A stretch of 23,760 bases of DNA. It comes from a virus. The position numbers and the translations under genes are program-made. Of the stretch, positions 1,361 to 9,415 are shown in pieces; position 1 is the stretch's first letter, and each line of letters starts with the position of its first letter. The stretch lies in the IMG/VR virus record IMGVR_UViG_3300031841_001778, positions 1 through 23,760 of that record, one strand, 5' to 3'. The notes below the pieces were generated by a model. It did not search any database. It worked only from the letters and a program-made list of their open reading frames with translations, and was not told the origin of the DNA.

Positions 1361-2065
1361 TTATAAACTAATCCAATCTCTATCATGTCTTAAATTAAAA
1401 TCTTCATATGTTGCTACTGGTATACTTAGTGATAATCTTTTTTGATTAGCTATGTATTGGTGGTACTTATGTGCCGGTACATATACTAGATCACCAGGTT
1501 TCATAATATGGTCTATTACAGGTTTAGATTCTTCTATTTCTTTTAATCTATTTTTACCTTCAACACAATCAACATTTCTATACTTATGGTCATCTGGTGT
1601 TAATTCGGTGTCCCATACTCTCATCACACTTTCTCCTTCACATTGTATAATAAAATTATGGTTGTTATCAAAGTGTACACCAAAACTTCTATCGTTATCG
1701 TGTAAATTAAAAAATACCTGTGCGTCAGCAGGTGCTTTCCATATTTCTTCTACATCATTAACACATTCATTTATCATCTTTGACAATCTACTACAATCTT
1801 TTATATAACAAGTATAATCTTTTAGCAATTTTCTCATTTCAGTTGCTGGTATAGAAGAATCATCTGTCGACCATGCATTTACTTGCCAATGCATTGGTTC
1901 ATTCATATTAATAGCTTTAAATCTTTCAGTATTAACAAATGGAGATAAATTAATAATTAACTCTAAGTCTGCCCAATCTAAAGGTTTATTATCCTTACAC
2001 ATCTGTGGCATGACATACGGTGTATTCAATTGTTTAGCATTTTCTATTAATAGATGAGGTATCAT
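1361..2065 (-). CDS. JmjC/cupin-fold iron-dependent oxygenase-like protein
   Basis: A 234-residue protein with a double-stranded beta-helix signature. The metal-binding pair is probably the HFD in FGVHFDNNHNF (about residue 134), followed by FIIQCEGESVMRVWD. The distal histidine is in GDLVYVPAHKYHQY (about residues 192-205). This is the pattern of JmjC-like ribosomal oxygenases (YcfD/NO66) and other 2-oxoglutarate oxygenases. I infer hydroxylation of a protein or small molecule; the substrate is not visible. It begins inside the end of the gp33-like gene (ATGA overlap), so the two are translationally coupled. Confidence 0.7.
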   Translation of the reverse strand: MIPHLLIENAKQLNTPYVMPQMCKDNKPLDWADLELIINLSPFVNTERFKAINMNEPMHWQVNAWSTDDSSIPATEMRKLLKDYTCYIKDCSRLSKMINECVNDVEEIWKAPADAQVFFNLHDNDRSFGVHFDNNHNFIIQCEGESVMRVWDTELTPDDHKYRNVDCVEGKNRLKEIEESKPVIDHIMKPGDLVYVPAHKYHQYIANQKRLSLSIPVATYEDFNLRHDRDWISL

Positions 2066-2280
2066 ACAGGTAATTTACCTCCAGCTTTTTGTTTTAATAA
2101 ATTTAAATTCATCGCTTCTATCTTTATTTTTTCTTTTAATGATTTAGATGTTAGAGAACCAACGGTTGACGGATCAATGTCATTTATTTCACAATAATGT
2201 AATATAGAATCCATGTATGTTATGCCTCTCTTCTCTTTCTTAATCTTTTCTATTTCTAACGAAAACTCTTTACTGTTCAC
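2062..2280 (-). CDS. 33: gp33-like late-transcription co-activator
   Basis: A 72-residue protein that resembles the C-terminal two thirds of T4 gp33 (112 residues). gp33 bridges host RNA polymerase and the gp45 sliding clamp to activate late promoters with sigma factor gp55. The shared pattern is IEKIKKEKRGITYMDSILHY, then E-x-N-D-I-D, LKEKIKIEA and a leucine pair; T4 has IEKMVEEFGMSYLEA, EENSIP and IIEKIQSEA. The end KLPV differs from the T4 hydrophobic tail that contacts the clamp. The start is GTG at 2280, overlapping the thyX stop. Closeness to gp59 supports the call. Confidence 0.8.
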   Translation of the reverse strand: MNSKEFSLEIEKIKKEKRGITYMDSILHYCEINDIDPSTVGSLTSKSLKEKIKIEAMNLNLLKQKAGGKLPV

Positions 2281-2884
2281 TTAAATACCTCCAACTAATA
2301 GGAAAATGGTCTTTACAATGCCCGCTAATATGTTGTGTGACCATTCTTGTTTCTTGTTGTGAATCTTCTTTGCCTCTTAAATTACATACACGAGCAAATG
2401 CATATAATGTTCCTGACCAATACCATTCGGTCATCATGTTTTGAGGTAAAACTATTCTTGCCATTTCAGGTGCTATATTCTTTTCAATCATATTGTTATA
2501 TAACTCCTTTGTTTGTTTCATATAATCAGTAATATCATATTCTATTTCATCTGAACCGGATCCTTGTTTTTTATTCTCTGCCTTATTACGCCAAATAAAC
2601 GGTATATAAAACTCAGGTTCACTATCTACATATCTTCTACTGACTTCATTCCAAACTAAACCTACTTGATGTTTAACTAGTTGTCTTGCTACAAATATAG
2701 GTGCTTTGATTCTAAATTGTAATTGACCATGTGCAAAGGGAGACCAATGCTCATGTTCAGCTAAATACTTGATTAGTTTTTCGTCTTTTTCTTCGAATTG
2801 GGATTTGTTTTTTGCAAACGACACTCTAGCTGCATTTACAACGGATAGATCACTACCCATTTTGTCAATTAATTCAACATTCAT
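2270..2884 (-). CDS. thyX: Flavin-dependent thymidylate synthase ThyX
   Basis: A 204-residue ThyX, which makes dTMP from dUMP using methylene-tetrahydrofolate, FAD and NADPH and supports phage DNA synthesis. Visible family elements are NAARVSFA near the N-terminus, HWSPFAHGQLQFRIKAPIFV, the signature region RQLVKHQVGLVWNEVSRRYV (about residues 68-87), and the C-terminal QQETRMVTQHISG with a conserved arginine. The canonical RHR triad reads KHQ here, a variant I associate with marine T4-like phages. The ATG at 2884 lies only 7 nt beyond the -10 element and has no Shine-Dalgarno site, so the message is probably leaderless. The next downstream ATG (2860) would remove the conserved N-terminus. 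Confidence 0.93.
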   Translation of the reverse strand: MNVELIDKMGSDLSVVNAARVSFAKNKSQFEEKDEKLIKYLAEHEHWSPFAHGQLQFRIKAPIFVARQLVKHQVGLVWNEVSRRYVDSEPEFYIPFIWRNKAENKKQGSGSDEIEYDITDYMKQTKELYNNMIEKNIAPEMARIVLPQNMMTEWYWSGTLYAFARVCNLRGKEDSQQETRMVTQHISGHCKDHFPISWRYLSEQ

Positions 2885-2890
2885 ATTATT

Positions 2891-2919
2891 AATATATCAG
2901 ATTACGTTAATATTGTCAA
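2891..2919 (-). promoter_or_regulatory. Sigma70-type promoter of thyX operon
   Basis: The -35 box TTGACA (2919-2914) is followed by a 17-bp spacer and the -10 box TATATT (2896-2891). The predicted start of transcription falls at about 2884, the first base of the thyX ATG. The -35 box directly follows the last hairpin of the tmRNA. Confidence 0.8.
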
Positions 2920-3138
2920 TGGTCCGTTCTGTTACTAGGTGGACCAAACCCTTTAGCAGTATTAAGCTGCTATAGCAAAGTTATTGTTTGCATTTATAAG
3001 TTTGACTATACGTTGTCAACGATTTAACTCCAAATAGTTTTAACCAACTGTCGAACCTACACACCCCCCATAAGCACACCAAAATGTGTTTATGGTGGAG
3101 GTGGTGGGAATTGCACCCACGTCCAGAATAGCTATTAT
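2919..3138 (-). ncRNA. ssrA: Circularly permuted two-piece tmRNA (ssrA), phage-encoded
   Basis: Reading the minus strand, the acceptor piece comes first. It has a T-arm GUGGG-UGCAAUU-CCCAC (3122-3106), the 3' acceptor strand CACCUCC (3103-3097), discriminator A and an encoded CCA ending at 3093. A spacer (3092-3069) forms an imperfect hairpin. The coding piece then starts GGGGGUG (3068-3062), which pairs with CACCUCC over all 7 positions (one G-U), followed by GGUUCGACAG as in bacterial tmRNA. The tag frame runs 2991-2962, and the hairpin AGCAG-CUUAAUA-CUGCU (2971-2955) holds the tag stop as in E. coli P5. A last hairpin, UGGUCC/GGACCA, closes the RNA at 2946-2920. The exact 5' end of the acceptor piece is uncertain. 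Permuted tmRNAs are known from alphaproteobacteria and picocyanobacteria; they rescue stalled ribosomes with SmpB. No SmpB gene is visible here. Confidence 0.93.
2962..2991 (-). other. tmRNA proteolysis-tag reading frame (ANNNFAIAA)
   Basis: The resume codon is GCA at 2991-2989. The frame reads A-N-N-N-F-A-I-A-A and ends in TAA at 2964-2962. With the charged alanine the tag would be AANNNFAIAA, ten residues, close in length to the E. coli tag AANDENYALAA and ending in the AA that ClpXP-type proteases recognise. The N-terminal ANNNFA is closer to alphaproteobacterial tags (ANDNFA...) than to picocyanobacterial ones, which I recall as ending in APVAA. Confidence 0.85.
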
Positions 3139-3145
3139 CTATTCT
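3125..3145 (-). repeat. Perfect 7-bp inverted repeat across a stop codon, next to tmRNA
   Basis: AGAATAG and CTATTCT are separated by a 7-nt loop. The TAG stop of the exported-protein gene (3141-3139) is in the 5' arm, and the 3' arm runs into the tmRNA acceptor piece. It may be a processing or stabilising element at the 5' boundary of the acceptor RNA, but this is inference. Its 3' arm could also take part in the long P2 helix of the tmRNA instead. Confidence 0.55.
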
Positions 3146-3510
3146 TCAACGTTAAATTCATAACGATCAAATGACCTAAAAACCATACATGCTTCAGCGA
3201 CACCAGGTACTACTACAACTGGTATCAGTTGTTTTTTATCTCTTGTCATGTACATAACAACCATATAAACTGGTTCACCATCTTCATATGCATTTGATCT
3301 ACCTACACTTGCACTATGTTTTTCAAAGCCGTGTAAGGTTAAATATTCCTGTACTGTTGCAACATGTCCACAAACTTGTGGTATGTTTCTAAAATACAAT
3401 TGTCCGTCTGTAAATGGTCCTTCAAAAAATCCGTGTGTATCTGCTTTAGATTTAAATGTAAAGCTACAACTTATTATGAAAGCGGACAATAATAGTGTTA
3501 TTTTTTTCAT
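3139..3510 (-). CDS. Small exported protein of unknown function
   Basis: A 123-residue protein that starts with a signal sequence: MKKITLLLSAFIIS followed by C. IISC fits a loose lipobox, so it could be a lipoprotein cleaved before Cys15; cleavage after KSKA is the alternative. The mature part (about 100 residues) contains two cysteines, one in QVCGHVATVQEYL and one in VAEACMVF, that may form a disulfide in the periplasm. I do not recognise the family. The ATG has the upstream site AGAGAGGGCTT. Its stop codon lies in a perfect 7-bp hairpin (3145-3125) next to the tmRNA acceptor piece, so this gene and the tmRNA are probably transcribed together from the promoter at 4280. Confidence 0.75.
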   Translation of the reverse strand: MKKITLLLSAFIISCSFTFKSKADTHGFFEGPFTDGQLYFRNIPQVCGHVATVQEYLTLHGFEKHSASVGRSNAYEDGEPVYMVVMYMTRDKKQLIPVVVVPGVAEACMVFRSFDRYEFNVEE

Positions 3511-3534: not shown

Positions 3535-4224
3535 TTATTTTACTTTGTCCTTGTTTTCCTTCTCATAATATTTATAAAAGTCTTCTATTGCCTTACCTAG
3601 TTTATCTACGTAATCCTTTTTATCTTTTATAAATGATCTCATTGTACCGTCTTCGGATGCAATAAGGATAACGATTTGATCTATGACTTTTCCAAATAGC
3701 TCTTCATACATAATAGCATAGGCTGTAGTCTGCATAAAGTAGTTCTCAATCCAACTTTCTTGTCTTTCTTTGTTGGCAGTTTTGAAATCAATAACAGATA
3801 ATTTACCATTATATTCTGCAATACAATCCACCTGACCTGCAATTGTCAACTTTTTAGAATACATAATTGTTTCTAAACAATGTACATTATCAATCTGATC
3901 TAAGTATGGTTTCATTAGTTTAAATAATCCTAATGGTAATACTGATCTTTCACTAGGTGTTTCACCTTTGATATATTCTTCTACTAATTTATGTGTAGCA
4001 CTACCACGTCTTGCAGCTCTACCCATTTCCCAATTAGCTACATCATGTCCGATACTATCACGCCATTTTTGTAAACCATCTGCTTTATCTTTTTGTTTAC
4101 CTAAAACTGTTGTTACTGAGGGGAAGTTTTGACCGTCAATAGTATAAAATCTATTACCGTCTATATTTTTGCCTTTTGTTTGAGGCAGTTTACTCTTATC
4201 TATATCTACAAATTTAAAACTCAT
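3535..4224 (-). CDS. PD-(D/E)XK exonuclease (Cas4/RecB-like)
   Basis: A 229-residue nuclease. The N-terminus has the YTIDGQNFPSVTTVLG segment found in phage PD-(D/E)XK exonucleases, then GRAARRGSATHKLVEEYI, whose histidine is a metal ligand in RecB-family enzymes. The catalytic core follows: AGQVDCIAEYNGKLSVIDFKTA (about residues 127-148) gives the D...D-x-K triad, and a QTTAYAIMYEEL helix matches the family's Q-x-x-x-Y motif. The probable role is processing DNA ends for recombination or degrading host DNA. A perfect -10 box lies 28 nt upstream, and the site AAAGGATT precedes the ATG. It heads the operon that continues into the exported protein and tmRNA. Confidence 0.88.
   Translation of the reverse strand: MSFKFVDIDKSKLPQTKGKNIDGNRFYTIDGQNFPSVTTVLGKQKDKADGLQKWRDSIGHDVANWEMGRAARRGSATHKLVEEYIKGETPSERSVLPLGLFKLMKPYLDQIDNVHCLETIMYSKKLTIAGQVDCIAEYNGKLSVIDFKTANKERQESWIENYFMQTTAYAIMYEELFGKVIDQIVILIASEDGTMRSFIKDKKDYVDKLGKAIEDFYKYYEKENKDKVK
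3569..3576 (-). promoter_or_regulatory. Possible T4-type late promoter TATAAATA inside exonuclease gene
   Basis: An exact TATAAATA octamer lies about 60 nt upstream of the exported-protein ATG at 3510. It coincides with the codons for YKYY at the end of the exonuclease. In DNA this AT-rich a few chance copies per strand are expected, so the call is weak. If real, it would give late expression of the exported protein and the tmRNA. Confidence 0.25.
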
Positions 4225-4251: not shown

Positions 4252-4280
4252 ATTATACCACAATTAGAGTAGATTGTCAA
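4252..4280 (-). promoter_or_regulatory. Consensus sigma70 promoter of the exonuclease-tmRNA operon
   Basis: TTGACA (4280-4275), a 17-bp spacer and TATAAT (4257-4252): both boxes match the sigma70 consensus fully, the best in the window. The -35 box starts only 4 bp after the preceding oxygenase gene ends. The exonuclease ATG is 28 nt downstream of the -10 box and has an AAAGGA ribosome site. Confidence 0.9.
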
Positions 4281-7846: not shown

Positions 7847-9415
7847 TTATTCTTCGTTCTCTTTTTGTTCTTCTCTATAAATCTGGTCTTTTAAAAAATC
7901 AAGTAAATTCTGTTCATTTTTTACTGCATTTGACCACATTTCCTTTTTAGCCTGTAAATGGTCCCAATGGGGCATCCACTCATCCATAATTTCATCTTCA
8001 GTCTTTTGATTCAAATAACATAATGTGGTTAAATCAGTTGGTGGGTAATTAAAACCTGCAGCTATAGAATGAAATCCTGTACCTTGTTCATGTGGCCAAT
8101 GATAATCAATATTTCTTTTTTGTGCAAATGATAAAAACTCATTTAAGAAATCACCTTTTAATTCTGTAATATGATCTGACCATGTTTTATTAAAGTTTGC
8201 TTTCCAATATGGTGTATCTTTTCTTTGAGATAATGCATAATGAAACGCAACAAAATGAGCAAACCCTTTGTATGCCACTTTACATTGGTGTGTAAAGTTA
8301 TCTTTGTCGTGTTGATTAGGGTCGCCACGTTCTAATGCTCTTAATAGATACCATAAAAATTCATGTACTGTATAAAGACCATTACTTTCTAATGGTTCTA
8401 TAAAACCTGCCGATAAACCTATAGCTGCGACATTCTTTACCCATAATCTTTTTGTAATACCAACTCGCATTTTTATATTTTTAAATTCACTATTTGATAT
8501 GTCATGCCCTTGTTTTTTTAGGTGCACCTTTAATTCATTTAATGCTGTACCATCATCTACAAATTTAGATGAGTAAACATAACCTGTACCAATTCTTTCC
8601 CAACTCGGTATATTCCACACCCAACCATTTTCTATAGCTGTACAGTTTGTATATGAAACAAGTTGTTCACTTTTATTTTTGTAAGGTACTCTAGTTGCCC
8701 ATGCACTATCATTTGGTAATAAATCATTATAACTTTCAAAAGGTTCTTTCATTTCTTTACCTAATAATAGAGATTTAAAACCTGTACAATCTATAAACAA
8801 GTCTGCTTTATATTGTTTGTTAATTGTTTCTATACCATCTTCATTATGTTCAACTGATTTTACATCTGTTAAGATATGTTTTACACCACGTGGTTTAGCA
8901 TAGTTATCTCTTAACCATAAAGCAAACTTTGTGGCGTCAAAATGATAAGCTGTATGTCTATTAAAATCAAATGGTATTTTATTATCTTTATTGTAAGTAA
9001 TTTTGTTTTGATTTACCAATGCCATTTGAGGGTAAATACATTCTGCATAATCAGAATTAGGAGTATTAGGATATAAAAACTTCTTTGTCCACCAATCATT
9101 CATTCTGGCATAGTTACCGTCCAAATTAGGTTCGCCAAAAGGATAGTGAAATGCCTCGCCCTTTTTATAAAAGTCTGTAAATTTGATTGATAACTTATAA
9201 GAACCATCTGTATGTGATAAAAATTCTTTATCATCTATACCTAAGAATTTAGTCCAGTTCTTAATACCACCAATAGTAGACTCACCAACACCAACTGTTG
9301 CAATGTTAGGACTTTCTAATAATGTTATATTTTTATTTGGGAATTTTTTGATAAGGGTACATGCTGTCATCCAACCTGCACTTCCACCACCTACAATCAT
9401 AATATCATTAATCAT
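7847..9415 (-). CDS. Tryptophan-halogenase-like flavoprotein
   Basis: A 522-residue member of the flavin-dependent tryptophan halogenase family. It shows the FAD-binding GGGSAGW near residue 9, GVGESTIGGIKNW, a lysine in GSYKLSIKF at the position of the catalytic lysine of PrnA, the halogenase motif GWVWNIP (W-x-W-x-I-P, about residues 267-273), and GFIEPLESNG with the conserved glutamate. Length matches the family (about 510-540). Family members chlorinate or brominate tryptophan or other substrates using reduced FAD and halide, and seawater is rich in both halides. Homologues occur in T4-like marine phages without a known substrate. It is the last gene of its transcription unit. Confidence 0.92.
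   Translation of the reverse strand: MINDIMIVGGGSAGWMTACTLIKKFPNKNITLLESPNIATVGVGESTIGGIKNWTKFLGIDDKEFLSHTDGSYKLSIKFTDFYKKGEAFHYPFGEPNLDGNYARMNDWWTKKFLYPNTPNSDYAECIYPQMALVNQNKITYNKDNKIPFDFNRHTAYHFDATKFALWLRDNYAKPRGVKHILTDVKSVEHNEDGIETINKQYKADLFIDCTGFKSLLLGKEMKEPFESYNDLLPNDSAWATRVPYKNKSEQLVSYTNCTAIENGWVWNIPSWERIGTGYVYSSKFVDDGTALNELKVHLKKQGHDISNSEFKNIKMRVGITKRLWVKNVAAIGLSAGFIEPLESNGLYTVHEFLWYLLRALERGDPNQHDKDNFTHQCKVAYKGFAHFVAFHYALSQRKDTPYWKANFNKTWSDHITELKGDFLNEFLSFAQKRNIDYHWPHEQGTGFHSIAAGFNYPPTDLTTLCYLNQKTEDEIMDEWMPHWDHLQAKKEMWSNAVKNEQNLLDFLKDQIYREEQKENEE

Follow-up and report, generated by a model that had tools for sequence, protein, structure and literature searches.

A circularly permuted tmRNA gene on the minus strand

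The virus contig analyzed here, a metagenomic stretch of 23.8 kb (23,760 nucleotides, referred to below as the window), raised the question of whether a phage carries its own two-piece tmRNA and, if so, whether that RNA is functional and where it came from. An earlier reading of the letters alone (the sequence-only reading) had proposed a phage-encoded, permuted tmRNA at 2919-3138, with the acceptor half ahead of the coding half on one strand, and had named the Rfam permuted and alphaproteobacterial models and ARAGORN in permuted mode as checks. Both Rfam models scored above their cut-offs, tmRNA_permuted (RF04321) with 106.5 bits (E = 3.4e-20, cut-off 47) over 3155-2962 and alpha_tmRNA (RF01849) with 88 bits (cut-off 50) over 3209-2918, and ARAGORN returned a permuted tmRNA with the tag ANNNFAIAA. 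ARAGORN made no tmRNA call in Markov-randomised windows (0/200), and the folding z-score was -3.05. Taken together, the Rfam scores, the permuted call, the randomised windows and the z-score exclude chance, and we conclude that the window contains a real permuted (two-piece) tmRNA gene.

The gene is complete and lies at about 3155-2918 of the window, on the minus strand, which the sequence-only reading had left unnamed; the order of the halves is as it described. The proposed span was too short on the 5′ side, where the gene reaches at least 3155 with the P2 pairing strand. The 5′ end of the acceptor piece may be further upstream still, at 3188 (ARAGORN) or 3209 (RF01849). The features of the gene and its surroundings are collected in Table 1.

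Table 1. Features of the tmRNA gene and its neighbourhood, in window coordinates
Feature	Position	Strand	Basis or remark
Acceptor (tRNA-like 3′) piece: P2 strand, T-arm, acceptor 3′ strand, A+CCA	3093..3155	-	ARAGORN, Rfam, structure
T-arm GUGGG-UGCAAUU-CCCAC	3104..3120	-	T-stem GUGGG 3120-3116 / CCCAC 3108-3104
Acceptor 3′ strand CACCUCC	3103-3097	-	followed by A+CCA
Discriminator A and encoded CCA tail	3093..3096	-	sequence
24-nt spacer, hairpin-forming	3069..3092	-	structure, folding
Coding piece: acceptor 5′ strand GGGGGUG, UAGGUUCGAC, P2, tag frame, 3′ hairpin	2918..3068	-	ARAGORN, Rfam, structure
Acceptor 5′ strand GGGGGUG	3068-3062	-	
UUCGAC	3053-3048	-	
Tag frame GCA AAC AAU AAC UUU GCU AUA GCA GCU UAA (ANNNFAIAA-stop)	2962..2991	-	ARAGORN
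P5-like hairpin at tag stop (AGCAG/CUGCU; UAGCAG/CUGCUA)	2955..2971	-	structure
3′ terminal hairpin UGGUCC/GGACCA (strands 2946-2941/2925-2920)	2920..2951	-	structure
PD-(D/E)XK exonuclease, syntenic upstream neighbour	3535..4224	-	HMM
Hypothetical protein	3139..3510	-	3′ end overlaps tmRNA 5′ strand by 17 nt
ThyX flavin-dependent thymidylate synthase, downstream neighbour	2270..2884	-	HMM
gp33-type late transcription coactivator, syntenic downstream neighbour	2062..2280	-	HMM
Sigma-70-like promoter TTGACA-17-TATATT, directly after tmRNA, before thyX	2891..2919	-	consensus match only
Perfect sigma-70 consensus TTGACA-17-TATAAT, upstream of nuclease-hypothetical-tmRNA unit	4252..4280	-	consensus match only

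Most of the anatomy put forward in the sequence-only reading was borne out. The acceptor strands pair at 7/7 positions, one of these being a G3:U70 wobble, the identity pair of alanyl-tRNA synthetase (AlaRS). The gap of 24 nt between the halves corresponds to the spacer, which, by analogy with permuted tmRNA biology, would be removed on processing, and the piece ends predicted at 3093 and 3068 agree with the positions of the acceptor stem and the spacer. The UUCGAC segment is likewise present, as is the tag frame with its resume codon, its C-terminal hydrophobic-Ala-Ala and its stop. The 3′ terminal hairpin region may in addition hold a pseudoknot (GGGU/ACCU), together with a conserved ACC..GUAACAGAA loop. 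We also observed two possible partners for GAAUAG in the acceptor piece, the adjacent CUAUUC and a CUAUUU in the coding piece (window 3144-3125 and 3037-3032), so that two mutually exclusive folds are possible, an ambiguity shared by some relatives.

Gene neighbourhood and phage type

The claim that the gene is phage-encoded was supported by its surroundings, since HMM searches matched T4-like genes in the window (gp59, the gp33-type coactivator and T4 RNase H), and the gene order around the tmRNA is nearly that of Pelagibacter phage Mosig. Among the matches listed, a gp33 homologue occurred at 93/122 viral loci and the nuclease at 85/122. The traits of T4-like SAR11 myophages (Kyanoviridae, Mosig/HTVC008M group), namely T4-like core genes together with Mosig's set around the tmRNA, are present; judged by its genes the contig is a T4-like myophage, and the gene order shared with relatives and the likeness of its tag make SAR11, bacteria that abound in the sea, its probable host.

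ssrA is often an integration site for mobile elements (PMC11915505), and the contig could on that account be bacterial, or a prophage remnant beside a host ssrA used for integration. We consider this extremely improbable, however, because the neighbours are genes of lytic T4-like phages, the nuclease-hypothetical-tmRNA-gp33/thyX set matches that of a complete isolate, Mosig, and no integrase match was found among the part of the window proteins that was scanned.

The perfect sigma-70 consensus upstream of the nuclease is likely to be the promoter of the tmRNA precursor, and the nuclease, the hypothetical gene and the tmRNA may form one operon. A search of the window for a glutamine riboswitch beside the tmRNA, as found in phage Melnitz, gave none at E up to 10. 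Elsewhere in the window, a flavin-dependent tryptophan halogenase family protein is encoded on the minus strand at 7847-9415 (PF04820, E = 4.8e-105).

Covariation and conservation of the tag

A structure derived from the window was compared with 34 different phage sequences; 79% of its cells were paired and 32/48 pairs had changed on both sides, giving a covariation score of 0.309, compared with 0.126 in shuffled alignments and at most 0.113 with partners slid. The T-stem and the acceptor stem were paired in all 34 sequences, with double changes at 4/5 T-stem pairs, and in P2 (helices 1-3), which joins the pieces, 84–90% of cells were paired and 10/12 pairs showed double changes. Because MAFFT alignments are wrong at the 3′ end, we assessed the 3′ hairpin in each sequence separately; 105/107 viral copies among the matches listed had 5 bp or more in this stem, compared with 34% in shuffles, and these 107 copies contained 36 different stems.

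The P5-like hairpin fared less well. It is present at the tag stop of the window gene, as the sequence-only reading had described, but across viral relatives it did not rise above the shuffle level (80% of 178 viral copies among the matches listed, versus 72% in shuffles). With shuffles giving an almost equal frequency, P5 was dropped as evidence, and it is the weakest element of the gene.

G3:U70 and A73 were found in 178/178 viral copies among the matches listed. In the T-loop (window 3115-3109), positions 54/58 took one of two states, U/A or G/G, with no mixtures among 254 permuted copies; these states were counted 109 and 69 times, respectively, in viral copies, while SAR11 copies were all G/G. 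With eight state changes placed on the tree, this pattern reads as a tertiary covariation. Distinct viral tags ended in [LIMV]AA in 76/79 cases, with all four Ala codons in use for the last two residues. Conserved tag ends with varied Ala codons, along with maintained pairing, point to selection that acts on the peptide as well as on how the RNA folds. Given the strong covariation among the 34 phage relatives and the constancy of these tag ends, the tmRNA gene of the window is almost certainly functional.

A function of a different kind would be that of a decoy that prevents trans-translation by binding to host SmpB or to ribosomes, comparable to the form in mycobacteriophage DS6A, which lacks a tag and has a tRNA-like domain only. 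Phage RNAs consisting only of this domain have been reported as inhibitors (PMC4131195; PMC11915505), and the HMM found no SmpB in the phage. A decoy would nevertheless have no need of a conserved tag frame, whereas 77/79 distinct viral tags kept a full frame ending in -AA while drifting freely at synonymous sites, and the 3′ domain is also maintained by covariation; we thus regard a decoy as improbable and favor a tmRNA that tags.

Comparison with SAR11 genes and the origin of the viral copies

We compared the viral copies with a set of presumed SAR11 genomes, which belong to one family and are small, with ~30% G+C and rhodopsin in 16/21. A permuted tmRNA was found in 50/60 presumed SAR11 genomes, and 29/29 tags from such genomes were nine residues long (among them ANDKFALAA, ANESYALAA, ANESYAIAA, ANEQFALAA and ANNKFALAA), which is the type to which ANNNFAIAA belongs. 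The tags of the window's viral group resemble these nine-residue tags of the presumed hosts. ANESYALAA was common to the viral and presumed SAR11 sets, and the first 17 nt of this tag were identical in phage copy L059 and SAR11 copy L175, which makes exchange of the tag segment as possible as convergence.

A tree of the non-tag cores (166 columns, one tree method and a finite sampling of cellular donors) placed 96 viral copies on one side of a branch with 99/99 support, so that, at this support, the sampled viral permuted tmRNAs group apart from the sampled genes of SAR11 and other alphaproteobacteria. Our first viral scan required AGGTTYGAC and might have missed host-like copies, and for this reason a second scan was run with the alphaproteobacterial motif; the copies that it returned were also placed in the viral group. 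Each scan yielded at least 119–120 stretches.

These results bear on whether the gene was captured recently from a host, or is a decaying remnant, without function in the phage. The viral copies scored 90–113 bits with the model, lower than cellular alphaproteobacterial copies (mostly 120–165 bits), as might be expected of such a gene. The viral copies nevertheless stand apart on the tree, the best SAR11 core identity of the window gene is 73%, and compensatory changes maintain its pairing; this origin therefore appears very improbable. The tree gives no support to recent capture from SAR11, although an AU test of the window's clade grouped with SAR11, one specific arrangement chosen once the tree was at hand, did not firmly reject that arrangement (p = 0.09).

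Tentatively, we suggest that the tmRNAs of marine T4-like phages form an old lineage distinct from the genes of present-day SAR11; the core of these RNAs would have drifted on its own, and their tag would have been tuned to the length and sequence of each host's tag. We hold this to be possible rather than probable. If true, the tag would reveal the identity of the host and would route products into the host's tag-dependent protease. In the sections of the literature that were searched, we found no earlier description of the separate viral group or of the host-like tags. The set raises the questions of whether the viral tmRNAs descend from a single old lineage or from repeated host captures, and whether viral tags follow those of the host.

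SmpB and a proposed mode of action

The sequence-only reading had noted the lack of smpB, and our HMM search indeed found none within the 23.8-kb window, although one could conceivably lie in a part of this phage's genome beyond the contig. None was found either in 32 phage records, which include three complete isolates (Mosig, Melnitz and HTVC008M among the records) and a 165-kb contig. SmpB was present in 15/21 presumed SAR11 genomes. This distribution is consistent with dependence of the phage tmRNA on host SmpB.

On the strength of the gene itself, its structure and covariation, tag conservation, gene context and the absence of smpB, we consider it very likely that the gene encodes a functional two-piece tmRNA, carried by a T4-like myophage with SAR11 as its probable host and acting by trans-translation with host factors. 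The course from transcription to an advantage for the phage would then be as follows. The precursor would belong to a transcript that also covers the nuclease gene and the hypothetical gene upstream, host tRNA-processing enzymes would excise the spacer, and the two pieces would be held together by acceptor stem and P2 pairing. Host AlaRS would charge the phage tmRNA by way of G3:U70 and A73, and host SmpB would deliver it, in infected cells, to ribosomes that have stalled on broken messages. As ANNNFAIAA resembles SAR11's own tags, rescued fragments that carry it should be passed on to tag-dependent proteolysis in the host. On balance, ribosomes and amino acids would stay available while messages are destroyed, and the phage may in this way control proteolysis during infection, as had been suggested from the sequence.

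Relation to known systems

Two-piece tmRNAs of phages are already known, from the marine phages treated by Buchholz et al. in 2022 (PMC9004378) and from the SsrA annotations of Mosig and Melnitz. That paper describes the two-piece tmRNA of Melnitz and counts 53 such structures among phage genomes, of which marine or aquatic phages account for 50; it presents viral genes as sharing their hosts' lineages, Melnitz excepted, and proposes that the RNA serves to maintain the hijacked translation machinery or to tag host proteins for recycling. The tmRNA database holds 79 phage sequences (PMC11915505).

The SsrA of Mosig EXVC030M (MT647606, 111467-111805) shares with the window gene the permuted form, a nine-residue tag, the T-loop UGCAAYU and its neighbours (PD-(D/E)XK nuclease, hypothetical, gp33 coactivator and ThyX), with 75% identity over the non-tag core, but differs in its tag (GEDNFALAA), its 44-nt spacer and the reverse order of gp33 and ThyX. 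A manA RNA motif lies near the tmRNA region of Mosig (L002 7383-7590; RF01745, 64 bits). The SsrA of Methylophilales phage Melnitz (MZ577095), a related T4-like phage, is also permuted and of alphaproteobacterial type, but has a 14-residue tag (ANDNYVPVDYALAA), a spacer of more than 100 nt and a glutamine riboswitch just downstream, whereas the window gene has no riboswitch nearby. In Pelagibacter phage HTVC008M we observed a permuted tmRNA (L004 3980-4189; KC465899, about 145161-145370) with 90.6 bits and the tag ANFNEYALAA, over which the record annotates no tmRNA feature. A further viral group (L013, L026, L030, L068, L097 and similar) carries tags of 23 residues (ANAFKPEVTVPMSVFADQELVAA), and the window's marker genes have hardly any match there; for some of its copies ARAGORN gives a shorter tag, ADAELVAA.

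The cellular tmRNA of SAR11 (presumed Pelagibacteraceae, L175-L204) has in common with the window gene the permuted form, the 3′ hairpin and the nine-residue tag type (ANESYALAA, ANDKFALAA, ANNKFALAA), but differs in its core (identity at most 73%), its separate place on the tree, its T-loop (G54/G58 versus U54/A58 in the window) and its spacer (11–13 nt in the copies inspected, versus 24 nt). The ssrA genes of mycobacteriophages Bxz1, Cali and Catera and of Bacillus phage G are of the standard one-piece form and are not known to be permuted. Like the window gene, they are phage-borne (PMC4131195). Since two-piece tmRNAs of marine phages were described in 2022 (PMC9004378), the gene reported here adds a member to a known class, and it is a well-supported addition to the phage-borne ribosome-rescue RNAs that are common in ocean viromes.
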